From contig JAJXWD010000007.1 in the NCBI GenBank assembly GCA_021781835.1, forward strand, positions 36,659-100,658: a stretch of DNA of 64,000 nt, in the 5' to 3' direction. This DNA comes from Pseudomonadota bacterium (GTDB lineage: Bacteria; Pseudomonadota; Alphaproteobacteria; Acetobacterales; Acetobacteraceae). Made by a program: the position numbers and the translations under genes. Shown here piece by piece: positions 31,714 to 47,647 of the stretch (the first letter of the stretch is position 1; every line of letters starts with the position of its first letter). Under the pieces are notes generated by a model. It had not been told where the DNA came from. It did no database searches and saw only the letters and a program-made list of their open reading frames with translations.

Positions 31714-31983
31714 TCAACAAATGGCCGCGCGCCGCGCCAGCAGCACCCCGCTCGCCGCCGCCGGCTCATGCGCGAGCTTTAGGCAATGCCCGGAACAATC
31801 AAGAAAATGCAAATCAAGCCCTGGATATTGGCGATAGGGTTCCTCATCGATATCCGCCGCCTCGCAGCCGCGCCAGCGCAGATGCGGCAAATGCGCACGC
31901 AAGATGGCCAAGGCCTCGGGCAATGTCTGGGCCGCCGCGGCCGTGTGCTCGATGATAGCGAACTCCTCATTGGTGATGGCCAT
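31714..31983 (-). CDS. Conserved small nif-cluster protein (possibly DUF6129-like)
   Basis: An 89-residue protein, MAITNEEFAIIEHTAAAAQT at the start, then PHLRWRGCEAADIDEEPYRQ and a tail with several cysteines (FLDCSGHCLKLAH, final C). From memory, similar small proteins occur in other alphaproteobacterial nif clusters, but I cannot confirm the family. It has an AGGA site before its ATG and lies between the DUF3024 gene and the ferredoxin, so it is co-transcribed with nifB. Confidence 0.65.
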   Translation of the reverse strand: MAITNEEFAIIEHTAAAAQTLPEALAILRAHLPHLRWRGCEAADIDEEPYRQYPGLDLHFLDCSGHCLKLAHEPAAASGVLLARRAAIC

Positions 31984-34996: not shown

Positions 34997-35839
34997 TCAG
35001 AAACAAGACAGCAGCTCATCCAGCGCGTCTCCGAAGGGCAGCGCGATGGGGGTGATGCCCTGCTCAGCGAGGAAACGCGATTCGTTGCGGGCCAGTGCCC
35101 CCCCTGGCAGCAGCGCGTAATGCCGCGCGCCGCTGCGCTTCATGATCTGGCGGGCATAGGAGCGCAGCATCTGGTCGTGAAACCGGCAACCGATGAACAC
35201 GAAGCCACGCCCCGCACGGCGGTCGCGCACGATGTCGGGAATTGGCGTCTGAATATCAATCTCGGTTAAAACCTCGACATAATCAGCGTCCGAGATCAGA
35301 TAATTGCGCGCCGGCGAAACGCCGCCATGCGGGCGATAGAGCAGCGTCGTCCATCCGGCCGCGGCTTCTGGCATAACCTGGACACCGCCCGCATCATAGA
35401 AGCGGAACCAGCGATCCTCGCCGATTCCAGCGCGGGTGATACCCTGCACCTCACCCCACCCCTCCCCGAGCGCCGCACGCATCGCGTCATCATACCAGCT
35501 CTCGACGATCAAGGGCAGGCGCAAGGAGGCCAGCGCCCGGTGCAGCGGCGCGGGCGGCACGGGGATGGCAAAGGCCTCGCTCATCAGGGCGGTAACGGTG
35601 TTGCGGTGCTTATAACTCTCAATATGCTGCGCCGCCGCCCAGACATTGCCTTTCGCGCGCCGGGGCAGTGCCACCTTGGCACCCAAAAACCCAGCCAGCG
35701 CCTCGGGCGTGCGAGGGCCTGGCGCCTCGGGCACGATGCCGGGGCCAAGATACGGCACCGCCGCACCATCAGCAAGCATGCAGGCGGCGTCGTGCAAGGC
35801 CGCGCGCGCGGCCTTTTGGGTATCGAATGCCGCGCTCAT
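34997..35839 (-). CDS. SIR2-like domain protein in the nif cluster
   Basis: The 280-residue protein has a SIR2-fold pattern: AVPYLGPGIVPEAPG near residue 30 corresponds to the NAD-binding GAGIS loop in altered form, with PLIVESWYDDAMRAAL and GFVFIGCRFHDQMLRSYARQ matching the middle and C-terminal SIR2-like segments. The catalytic histidine of deacylases is not evident, so it may bind NAD or ADP-ribose without deacylating. It follows nifT by one base and ends just before the nifB promoter, so it belongs to the fdxN2-nifT operon. Its role in nitrogen fixation is unknown. Confidence 0.7.
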   Translation of the reverse strand: MSAAFDTQKAARAALHDAACMLADGAAVPYLGPGIVPEAPGPRTPEALAGFLGAKVALPRRAKGNVWAAAQHIESYKHRNTVTALMSEAFAIPVPPAPLHRALASLRLPLIVESWYDDAMRAALGEGWGEVQGITRAGIGEDRWFRFYDAGGVQVMPEAAAGWTTLLYRPHGGVSPARNYLISDADYVEVLTEIDIQTPIPDIVRDRRAGRGFVFIGCRFHDQMLRSYARQIMKRSGARHYALLPGGALARNESRFLAEQGITPIALPFGDALDELLSCF

Positions 35840-46002: not shown

Positions 46003-46323
46003 TTAGCCGAATGATTTGCCGCAGGAGCAGCTTTTATTGGCGTTGGGATTCTCAAAGGTGAACCCCGAGCCCTGCAACGCCACGACGAAATCGATGGTGG
46101 TGCCGTCGAGCAGCATGCGGCTCTTGGGGTCGACCACCACCCGCACACCCTCACGCTCAACAACATCGTCCTCATCATTTGCCTCGGGCACCAGCCCCAT
46201 CATATATCTATATCCCGCGCAGCCGCCGCTCTCGACCATGATCCGCAAGCCCAAGACCGGCCCCAAAGCCCCCGCCATCGCCGTCCGCACCGCATTCAAC
46301 GCACTGTCCGTCAGATTGATCAT
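46003..46323 (-). CDS. IscA-type Fe-S assembly protein of the nif cluster
   Basis: From ATG 46323 the product is 106 residues, beginning MINLTDSALNAVRTAMAGAL. The three conserved cysteines of A-type carriers are present: GGCAGYRY (about residue 38) and the C-terminal KSCSCGKSF. Often named nifIscA or HesB-like. It is first in the operon behind an exact -24/-12 promoter. The frame is open far upstream but that part overlaps the promoter and lacks homology. Confidence 0.93.
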   Translation of the reverse strand: MINLTDSALNAVRTAMAGALGPVLGLRIMVESGGCAGYRYMMGLVPEANDEDDVVEREGVRVVVDPKSRMLLDGTTIDFVVALQGSGFTFENPNANKSCSCGKSFG

Positions 46324-46386
46324 GGCCCACTCCTTCACATGTTGGCGCGGTATGCCGCGCTTGCTAAAACCCTGAAGCAAACCCCA

Positions 46387-46401
46387 GCAAGCCCCGTGCC
46401 A
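46387..46401 (-). promoter_or_regulatory. Sigma-54 promoter of the iscA-nifU-nifS-nifV-cysE-nifW operon
   Basis: Minus strand TGGCACG-GGGC-TTGC, perfect -24/-12 consensus, 63 bases before the first gene. Confidence 0.92.
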
Positions 46402-46460
46402 TGGCGAAGCGACATGAATTGTCATGGTTTTTCCGCTAACTGTCGCAAGTGCTGCGCTCT

Positions 46461-46476
46461 TGTCGGCTTCCCTACA
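46461..46476. promoter_or_regulatory. NifA activator site, shared by divergent promoters
   Basis: TGT-CGGCTTCCCT-ACA, exact TGT-N10-ACA. It is 59 bases from the minus-strand -24 element and 51 bases from the plus-strand one, so it can serve both. Confidence 0.8.
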
Positions 46477-46484
46477 GGCCCCGC

Positions 46485-46500
46485 TGTCAGGTGCCCGACA
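46485..46500. promoter_or_regulatory. Second NifA activator site in the divergent region
   Basis: TGT-CAGGTGCCCG-ACA, exact TGT-N10-ACA, 83 bases from the minus-strand -24 element and 27 bases from the plus-strand one. Confidence 0.8.
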
Positions 46501-46527: not shown

Positions 46528-46542
46528 CGGCACGGTCCTTGC
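46528..46542 (+). promoter_or_regulatory. Sigma-54 promoter facing the unrecognised plus-strand gene
   Basis: CGGCACG-GTCC-TTGC keeps the invariant GG and GC at the right spacing; only the first base departs from TGGCACG. It is 55 bases before the ATG at 46598. Confidence 0.8.
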
Positions 46543-46597
46543 GTTATCTGCCCCGCGCGGCATCGCGCTGCTCAACCATTCCAAGAAGGACGATGAC

Positions 46598-47188
46598 ATG
46601 ACCAGTATCGACACCACGGCGCTCGGCCGTCTGGAGCAGGCTCACCGGCTGCTTAACGCCGTGCTCAAGGCTCCCACCACCAAGCCTGGCCGCTTCGGGT
46701 TTCGCGGCGACATCGCGTTGAAATTTCAGCAGCAACTCGCCGACGAAAAGCGCCCGCCCGAATATTCGATCGAGCAGGTGCTGGTGATCGCGCCTGAAAA
46801 TGGCGGCAAGTTGCCCTTTCTGGCTGGCTATCTGCACTCCTTCGCCTATCTCGCCGATGTCGCCGAGCTGCTCGGGCCGCTGCTCTCGCCCGAGGGAAAA
46901 TACTTCATGTTCTGTAACAATATCGACCTGCTCGCCAAATACAGCGTGAAAATCGGTGATATCACCTTTATCGTCCTCCCGCTCGATGAATCGACCGTCT
47001 GGGTCGAAATGCTTGAACTCACCGGCATCGACAAGAATGACGTGAAAAAATTGACCACCGCTGGCAAGCTTGATTATCTGGCTGACAAAGCCTCAGATTT
47101 TTCCGAACCATTCGAGGCGGTCAGCTATGAAGACGGCATGAAGCGCATGGGCCCCATAAAAAACCGCAACGAAAACCGCCCGGTTTGA
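46598..47188 (+). CDS. Unrecognised protein under apparent NifA/sigma-54 control
   Basis: This 196-residue protein is the only plus-strand gene inside the nif cluster. It begins MTSIDTTALGRLEQAHRLLN, has a conserved-looking core (EYSIEQVLVIAPENGGKLPF, LAGYLHSFAYLADVAELLG, GDITFIVLPLDESTVWVEML) and a polar tail ending NRNENRPV. No signal peptide, membrane segment or Fe-S motif is visible; there is one cysteine (MFCNN). It looks like a cytosolic alpha/beta protein. AAGAAGGA precedes the ATG, and a -24/-12 promoter with two NifA sites lies upstream. I do not recognise the family. Its control strongly suggests a function during nitrogen fixation. Confidence 0.8.
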   Translation: MTSIDTTALGRLEQAHRLLNAVLKAPTTKPGRFGFRGDIALKFQQQLADEKRPPEYSIEQVLVIAPENGGKLPFLAGYLHSFAYLADVAELLGPLLSPEGKYFMFCNNIDLLAKYSVKIGDITFIVLPLDESTVWVEMLELTGIDKNDVKKLTTAGKLDYLADKASDFSEPFEAVSYEDGMKRMGPIKNRNENRPV

Positions 47189-47278: not shown

Positions 47279-47647
47279 TCAGTCATCAACAAGATCAACA
47301 CCAAGCAGACAGATTTCACCATCCTCAACGGCAACCCGCAAAGCCGTTAGCCCCCTACCCGCGCACGGACCCTCGGCGCAGCACCCGGTATCAATCTCGA
47401 ACAACGAGCCATGCTTGCCGCAAATCAAAAATTCTCCTGAACCATCGATGAACTGATTGGCCTCCCAATCCAGGCGCGTGCCCTGGTGGGGGCATTTATT
47501 TTCATAGGCAAATACATGTCGTCCCCAACGTAAAATCAGCACCGGCCAGGGCGTTTCCTCGCCACGGCGCACCAGCAAAAACCCCCGCGCCTGGCGGTTG
47601 GGAACCTCATCGAGCCGGCAAATGACAAACACAGCCTCATCGGACAT
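47279..47647 (-). CDS. Rieske-type [2Fe-2S] protein
   Basis: From ATG 47647 the product is 122 residues with both Rieske ligand loops, NKCPHQGTRLD (C-x-H) and ICGKHGSLFEIDTG (C-x2-H), as in soluble Rieske ferredoxins. A cysteine-rich stretch TGCCAEGPCAGRGL follows. It is the last gene of the nifH transcription unit, 19 bases after nifQ. It may feed electrons to nitrogenase or an assembly step; partner unknown. Confidence 0.88.
   Translation of the reverse strand: MSDEAVFVICRLDEVPNRQARGFLLVRRGEETPWPVLILRWGRHVFAYENKCPHQGTRLDWEANQFIDGSGEFLICGKHGSLFEIDTGCCAEGPCAGRGLTALRVAVEDGEICLLGVDLVDD

Follow-up and report, generated by a model that had tools for sequence, protein, structure and literature searches.

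The stretch of DNA analysed here, a window of 64,000 nucleotides from a 2.9 Mb genome of the Acetobacteraceae, carries a nitrogen-fixation (nif) gene cluster in which a single gene, 46598-47188 (+), faces the opposite way to its neighbours. An initial annotation had singled this gene out as encoding a 196-residue product of no recognised family, and had proposed it as a candidate nitrogen-fixation accessory factor. Its coordinates, strand and 196-residue product were reproduced from the open reading frame (ORF). Among the matches listed, homologues are mostly of 196 residues or near that length and align from the same start, so the ORF is not a chance one. All other genes assigned between 31373 and 56536 lie on the minus strand, in agreement with the divergent orientation claimed for it. 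The reading frame is already open from an ATG at 46424; because a transcript from the predicted promoter would begin 3′ of this codon, 46598 is the likely start.

Towards the 3′ end of the gene lie nifHDK, nifEN, nifX, a DUF269 gene, a gene for a PF05082 protein, fdxB, nifQ and a Rieske gene, and the other flank holds iscA, a NifU-type gene, nifS, nifV, a cysE-like gene, fix genes, nifA, fdxN, nifT, a SIR2-like gene, nifB and nifZ, with the neighbours on both flanks on the minus strand. In this region, NifA and NifT were matched by models over cut-off, and further matches were obtained to Fe-S_biosyn, Rieske, NifQ, Rop-like, DUF269, NifU, SIR2_2 and DUF3024; the remaining names were read from the translations. 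The nearest named locus in the scan of genome contigs belongs to an Acidocella metagenome assembly (74% identical), which points to Alphaproteobacteria as the class and Pseudomonadota as the phylum. The features on which the argument depends are collected in Table 1.

Table 1. Features at and around the divergent gene of the nif cluster (window coordinates).
Feature	Position	Strand	Basis
Family gene (196 aa)	46598..47188	+	ORF, homologues, AlphaFold2 model, tail NRNENRPV
Predicted sigma-54 -24/-12 promoter of family gene	46528..46543	+	10/12 consensus; conserved among loci
Second NifA-type activator site TGT-N10-ACA	46485..46500		Exact match
NifA-type activator site TGT-N10-ACA	46461..46476		Exact match; iscA operon could share
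Predicted divergent -24/-12 promoter, iscA-nifU-nifS-nifV operon	46386..46401	-	12/12 consensus
iscA-type Fe-S assembly gene, divergent neighbour	46003..46323	-	PF01521; same neighbour in 83/89 loci
Convergent neighbour: gene for a 122-aa nif-type Rieske ferredoxin with ligands CxH and CxxH	47279..47647	-	PF00355

In line with the initial annotation, which recognised no family for the protein, Pfam and NCBIfam gave no match to it at expectation values (E) up to 10, and hence no known non-nif family. When 56 members of the family were compared with Pfam, the best value was E 0.017, for one member only and to an unrelated family, and four members of a distant branch gave no match over cut-off to family models. 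Three homology searches returned 1716, 1215 and 1835 proteins within the limits set, with a listing of the best 120 from each. Across the 56 sequences, the invariant residues include T7, L12, L18, F35-R36-G37, A40-L41, E50, R52-P53-P54, Q60-V61, Y102, N108, T133-V134, E137, K150, K157, P186 and N193-R194-P195-V196; strand residues 59-61 read [ED]-Q-V. The family is unnamed, and relatives are annotated as hypothetical proteins in transcriptome and proteome tables. The gene is therefore not unseen; its link to nif and its lack of a recognised family both stand. Locus-tag searches of the literature, covering open-access texts, found no function in print, and the available parts of PMC4999443, PMC3916325 and PMC13207237 do not name the gene.

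The AlphaFold2 model of the protein is confident (predicted local distance difference test, pLDDT, 92) and describes a globular alpha/beta domain with a folded part of approximately residues 4-183, for which no match of confidence was found in the PDB. The window protein contains a single cysteine and no iron-sulphur (Fe-S) motif, the latter as anticipated, and among the 56 family sequences no cysteine or histidine is invariant or nearly so that could serve as an Fe-S or Rieske ligand. A redox centre within the protein itself is made less likely by a conserved globular domain that lacks metal ligands. Beyond the domain, the protein ends in NRNENRPV. An exact NRPV end was found in 286 of 286 proteins among the matches listed, a count that covers the best-listed homologues, and in 94 copies of a partly redundant set of 104 loci, in which one more copy continues into an unread base and the rest belong to the other branches described below. 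This tail is disordered (pLDDT approximately 44) in two models led by different sequences, and NRPV is absent from all four non-nif copies that were read. Because the tail is identical to the last residue, unstructured in the monomer and missing from non-nif copies, it would most simply act as a docking peptide for a protein of the nitrogenase system.

The predicted -24/-12 promoter of the gene, CGGCACGGTCCTTGCG, departs from the consensus at the first T and at the last A/T. Since 20 sites scoring at least 10 occur in the window when both strands are counted, a single site of this kind is weak evidence, and it is conservation that settles the matter. Of 85 related loci (L001-L083, L088 and L089, with the window's own locus counted in), 81 have a site scoring at least 9 situated 70-96 bases 5′ of the start codon, compared with 47 of 4250 base-shuffled controls; these loci are Bradyrhizobium in the main and hence not independent cases, and the misses are L008, L051, L081 and L083. 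The promoter sequence noted in the initial annotation is thus confirmed. Furthermore, at least one TGT-N10-ACA site is present upstream of the family gene in 74 of 88 loci, one further locus being too short. In the window, the two exact sites that had been claimed as common to this gene and the iscA-nifUSV operon do fall between the family-gene promoter and the perfect minus-strand site of the iscA operon at 46401. If transcription starts approximately 12 bases past the -12 element, their centres would lie approximately 60 and 85 bases from the family-gene start and approximately 95 and 120 bases from that of iscA, upstream in both cases, and the two genes could share them. On these sequence features, the window gene is predicted to be NifA-activated.

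The occurrence of the family was surveyed in several genome samples, which overlap in a few genomes, and carriers proved to be almost exclusively nifD genomes in the samples searched. In a sample of the class, the family was found in 3 of 385 genomes, all among the 13 with nifD over cut-off; in a sample of the phylum, it was found in 13 of 398 genomes (the window's own genome counted; 6 main-branch and 7 distant copies), all among the 41 nifD genomes (Fisher P = 2e-14 for carriers versus nifD over cut-off). Among 149 genomes of one family, 23 carried the gene, 21 of them among the 39 nifD genomes over cut-off. As for the other two carriers, G534 has sub-threshold matches to the nifD model only, and G468, which gave no match to it, is 79% complete in 770 contigs. 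Among 61 genomes drawn as relatives of the window genome, itself counted, the family is present in 2. The family therefore marks a subset of diazotrophs.

NifA dependence and microoxic induction have been published for relatives of the window gene. Table 1 of PMC8305402 lists 142 plasmid genes of Paraburkholderia phymatum in nifA-mutant nodules, among which Bphy_7752 (log2 -11.54) and Bphy_7807 (log2 -11.11) show the two largest numeric drops in the mutant; 11 further genes, for which no mutant reads were obtained and NA is given, may depend on NifA as strongly or more so. The nifH-divergent gene at 516643-517251 is Bphy_7752, whose product shares 52% identity with the window protein over 193 residues, and Bphy_7807 corresponds to BPHY_RS38505. 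Both are family members with the NRPV tail and both are strongly NifA-dependent, but they differ from the window gene in diverging from nifH instead of iscA, and the stretches read around them yielded no Rieske gene. A further relative, bll1754 of Bradyrhizobium diazoefficiens, is assigned to the family on synteny: it occupies the same place, between the Rieske-type blr1753 and the iscN/iscA-type blr1755, on the opposite strand to judge by locus tags. Strong microoxic or bacteroid induction of bll1754 is recorded in PMC6515984, PMC8632152 and PMC4926349, the parts of which that were available assign it no function; in the first of these, its protein rises by log2 +6.2 in microoxia, with the transcript up 5.5-fold, and the transcript is increased 120.9-fold in bacteroids. 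Expression in relatives thus does change, through NifA dependence in P. phymatum or microoxic and bacteroid induction (PMC6515984).

The family gene also keeps company with a particular ferredoxin. A Rieske profile built from 11 proteins (nine from nif loci and two from non-nif units) was run at E up to 1e-8 against the 39 nifD genomes of the one-family sample, and a nif-type Rieske protein was found in 16 of the 21 with the family versus 0 of the 18 without it (P = 1e-6, a value that overstates independence, as the genomes are related). Each of these 16 has a Rieske gene no more than 750 bases from the family gene. The 11 aligned sequences share the cluster ligands CxH and CxxH together with the invariant extra cysteines C10, C90, C95 and C113; the window's representative of this Rieske family is encoded at 47279-47647 (-). 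Many of the nif clusters in these genomes contain a second, more distant Rieske gene approximately 10-17 kb from the family gene (e.g., L116 19725). The pairing occurs in three gene orders, namely convergent, as in the window and its kind; downstream on the same strand in Methylococcus, whose Rieske protein is approximately 32% identical to the window's over 80 residues; and upstream on the same strand beside a non-nif copy of the family gene. This recurrence makes a redox partner plausible in many lineages, though not in all of them.

In the one-family sample of 149 genomes, 8 have the non-nif copy (132-143 bits), in each case alongside a main copy, and in the 4 of these 8 loci that were read it directly adjoins a Rieske gene on the same strand. 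It is thus like the window gene in family and in Rieske neighbour, but it differs in lacking the NRPV tail, and the 14-18 kb read on either side of and including the four copies (L098-L101) yielded no nif genes. The Rieske gene and the tail-less copy constitute a two-gene unit outside nif clusters (L098 8361-9484, L099 6176-7296, L100 and L101), in which the Rieske gene is 42-51% identical to nif-type ones where compared. A -24/-12-like site precedes this Rieske gene in three of the four loci, two of which are close relatives, with scores of 9, 9 and 11 of 12; in the fourth, none better than 6 was found. Genomes G433 and G502 have the corresponding Rieske gene with no detectable family copy beside it. 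The NRPV tail, the Rieske association and the tail-less Rieske-paired copies are new in the present analysis. A more specific, tentative reading, to which we give about one chance in four, is as follows: the family would be the adaptor of an undescribed nitrogenase protection module, with the nif-specific Rieske ferredoxin as partner and NRPV as docking signal, and with the second-site unit lacking the tail.

Two main arrangements of the gene were observed within nif clusters. In the first (A), to which the window belongs, the copy diverges from iscA (83 of 89 loci). In the second (B), it diverges from nifH, as in 6 of the 8 betaproteobacterial plasmid loci read (9 places were found), in Methylococcus, where two genes stand between the family gene and nifH, and in all five carrier genomes without a nif-type Rieske. 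The two nifH copies of P. phymatum are each accompanied by a divergent copy of the family gene; in two Cupriavidus loci the family gene is present and nifH was not found within the stretch read. Ankyrin-repeat genes come next after the family gene in 7 of the 8 betaproteobacterial loci. Two family copies were also seen in the Bradyrhizobium pairs L009/L060 and L022/L034 and in G506 (C125), the Bradyrhizobium copies lying each within its own nif context. Since iscA is the divergent neighbour in arrangement A and nifH in arrangement B, docking could take place on the Fe-S assembly side or at the Fe protein.

A group II truncated haemoglobin gene precedes the family gene in several loci of the second arrangement: it is annotated directly upstream in Methylococcus, P. 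aromaticivorans and P. sprentiae, and sits between the family gene and nifH in two of the 6 nifH-divergent betaproteobacterial loci. A haemoglobin-related gene occupies the same interval in G784, and a haemoglobin gene, named from its translation, lies close by in L083. These neighbours, along with the Rieske pairing and the divergence from nifH, favour an oxygen or redox protection factor that, with the Rieske ferredoxin or the haemoglobin, would shield the Fe protein under oxidative stress. Such a role appears possible though doubtful to us, as a haemoglobin gene occurs in only 4 of the 89 loci (L083, L086 and L087, and L008 at 8 kb) and the family protein has no cofactor motif of its own; we also know of no oxygen phenotype of a gene of this family, which weighs against the idea. 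The iscA side of the locus would be in keeping with an assembly chaperone of the Fe-S or iron-molybdenum (FeMo) cofactor pathway that would work with IscA, NifU and NifS and need no redox partner: the iscA-nifUSV operon is separated from the family gene by the two activator sites, 83 of 89 loci have iscA as the divergent neighbour, and relatives respond like nif genes. However, on plasmids of beta- and gammaproteobacteria, and likewise in the five carrier genomes mentioned above, the gene stands beside nifH and not iscA, and the non-nif copy pairs with a Rieske gene alone, so that we judge this alternative unlikely, and somewhat more so than protection.

The reading that we prefer, in which our confidence is about evenly balanced, is that the window gene belongs to an unnamed nif-cluster family with a conserved sigma-54-type promoter and encodes a likely non-catalytic nitrogenase accessory protein that would dock by its NRPV tail. 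The docking mechanism is suggested by the conservation of the tail, its disorder and its absence from non-nif copies. The globular domain would handle a partner, for example the Rieske ferredoxin, and the tail would bring the family protein to nitrogenase itself or to the apparatus for its assembly or protection, on the NifH or the IscA/NifU side; the likely benefit would be redox protection or the upkeep of an Fe-S protein of the nitrogenase system.

Several observations weigh against this accessory-protein reading. The family is absent from 28 of the 41 nifD genomes of the phylum sample, and nitrogen fixation in general thus does not require it. The distant branch (C; 53-71 bits) ends in G-[PA]-[VI] in 7 of 7 copies, not in NRPV; nif genes lie on the same contig within approximately 25 kb in 5 of these 7 genomes, and no nif gene was found on the contigs of the G631 (2.1 kb read) and G569 copies. 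The nif-type Rieske is missing from 5 of the 21 carrier nifD genomes (G426, G438, G480, G497 and G536), all nifH-divergent; no Rieske gene was found in 14 of the 80 loci of the genome-contig scan (66 have one), the misses all being Bradyrhizobium loci, one of them short-flanked, and none was found in the 8 betaproteobacterial loci read. Because such carriers and loci exist, the Rieske link cannot be the whole function. In the part of PMC6515984 available, bll1754 is marked as falling outside the NifA+RpoN regulon defined earlier for B. diazoefficiens, and nifS, nifT and nifW are marked likewise. Finally, the term non-catalytic may not hold, since an active site in the family protein is possible: residues E50, Q60, E137 and K150 do not vary, and an acid at position 148 in 54 of the 56 sequences yields an acid-x-lysine motif (148-150) in a helix region of the model. 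That the protein is a nuclease of the PD-(D/E)XK type, or a regulator of that type acting on DNA or RNA, is an explanation that we hold to be very improbable.

Small nif-linked proteins with a presumed role in nitrogenase or its maturation, dispensable in some diazotrophs, include NifW, NifT, NifZ, CowN and the Shethna protein FeSII. The window protein resembles these small accessory proteins, but it differs from them in matching no Pfam or NCBIfam model and, unlike FeSII, it has no Fe-S motif. Two other genes of the cluster were noted in passing. The SIR2-like protein (PF13289) encoded at 34997-35839 (-), flanked by nifB and nifT, has a relative in 57 of 89 related loci and represents a second conserved nif-cluster gene without a clear role. 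An 89-residue ORF at 31714-31983 (-) matches neither Pfam nor NCBIfam at E up to 0.001 and has a relative in 58 of the 89.

If nitrogenase is to be engineered into new hosts in a robust form, every accessory gene has to be known. The family described here is nearly confined to diazotrophs in the samples searched and is strongly NifA-dependent where this has been measured, and it ends identically in every listed homologue, yet no name for it was found and Pfam and NCBIfam have no model of it. The tail offers a direct way of testing what the protein does.
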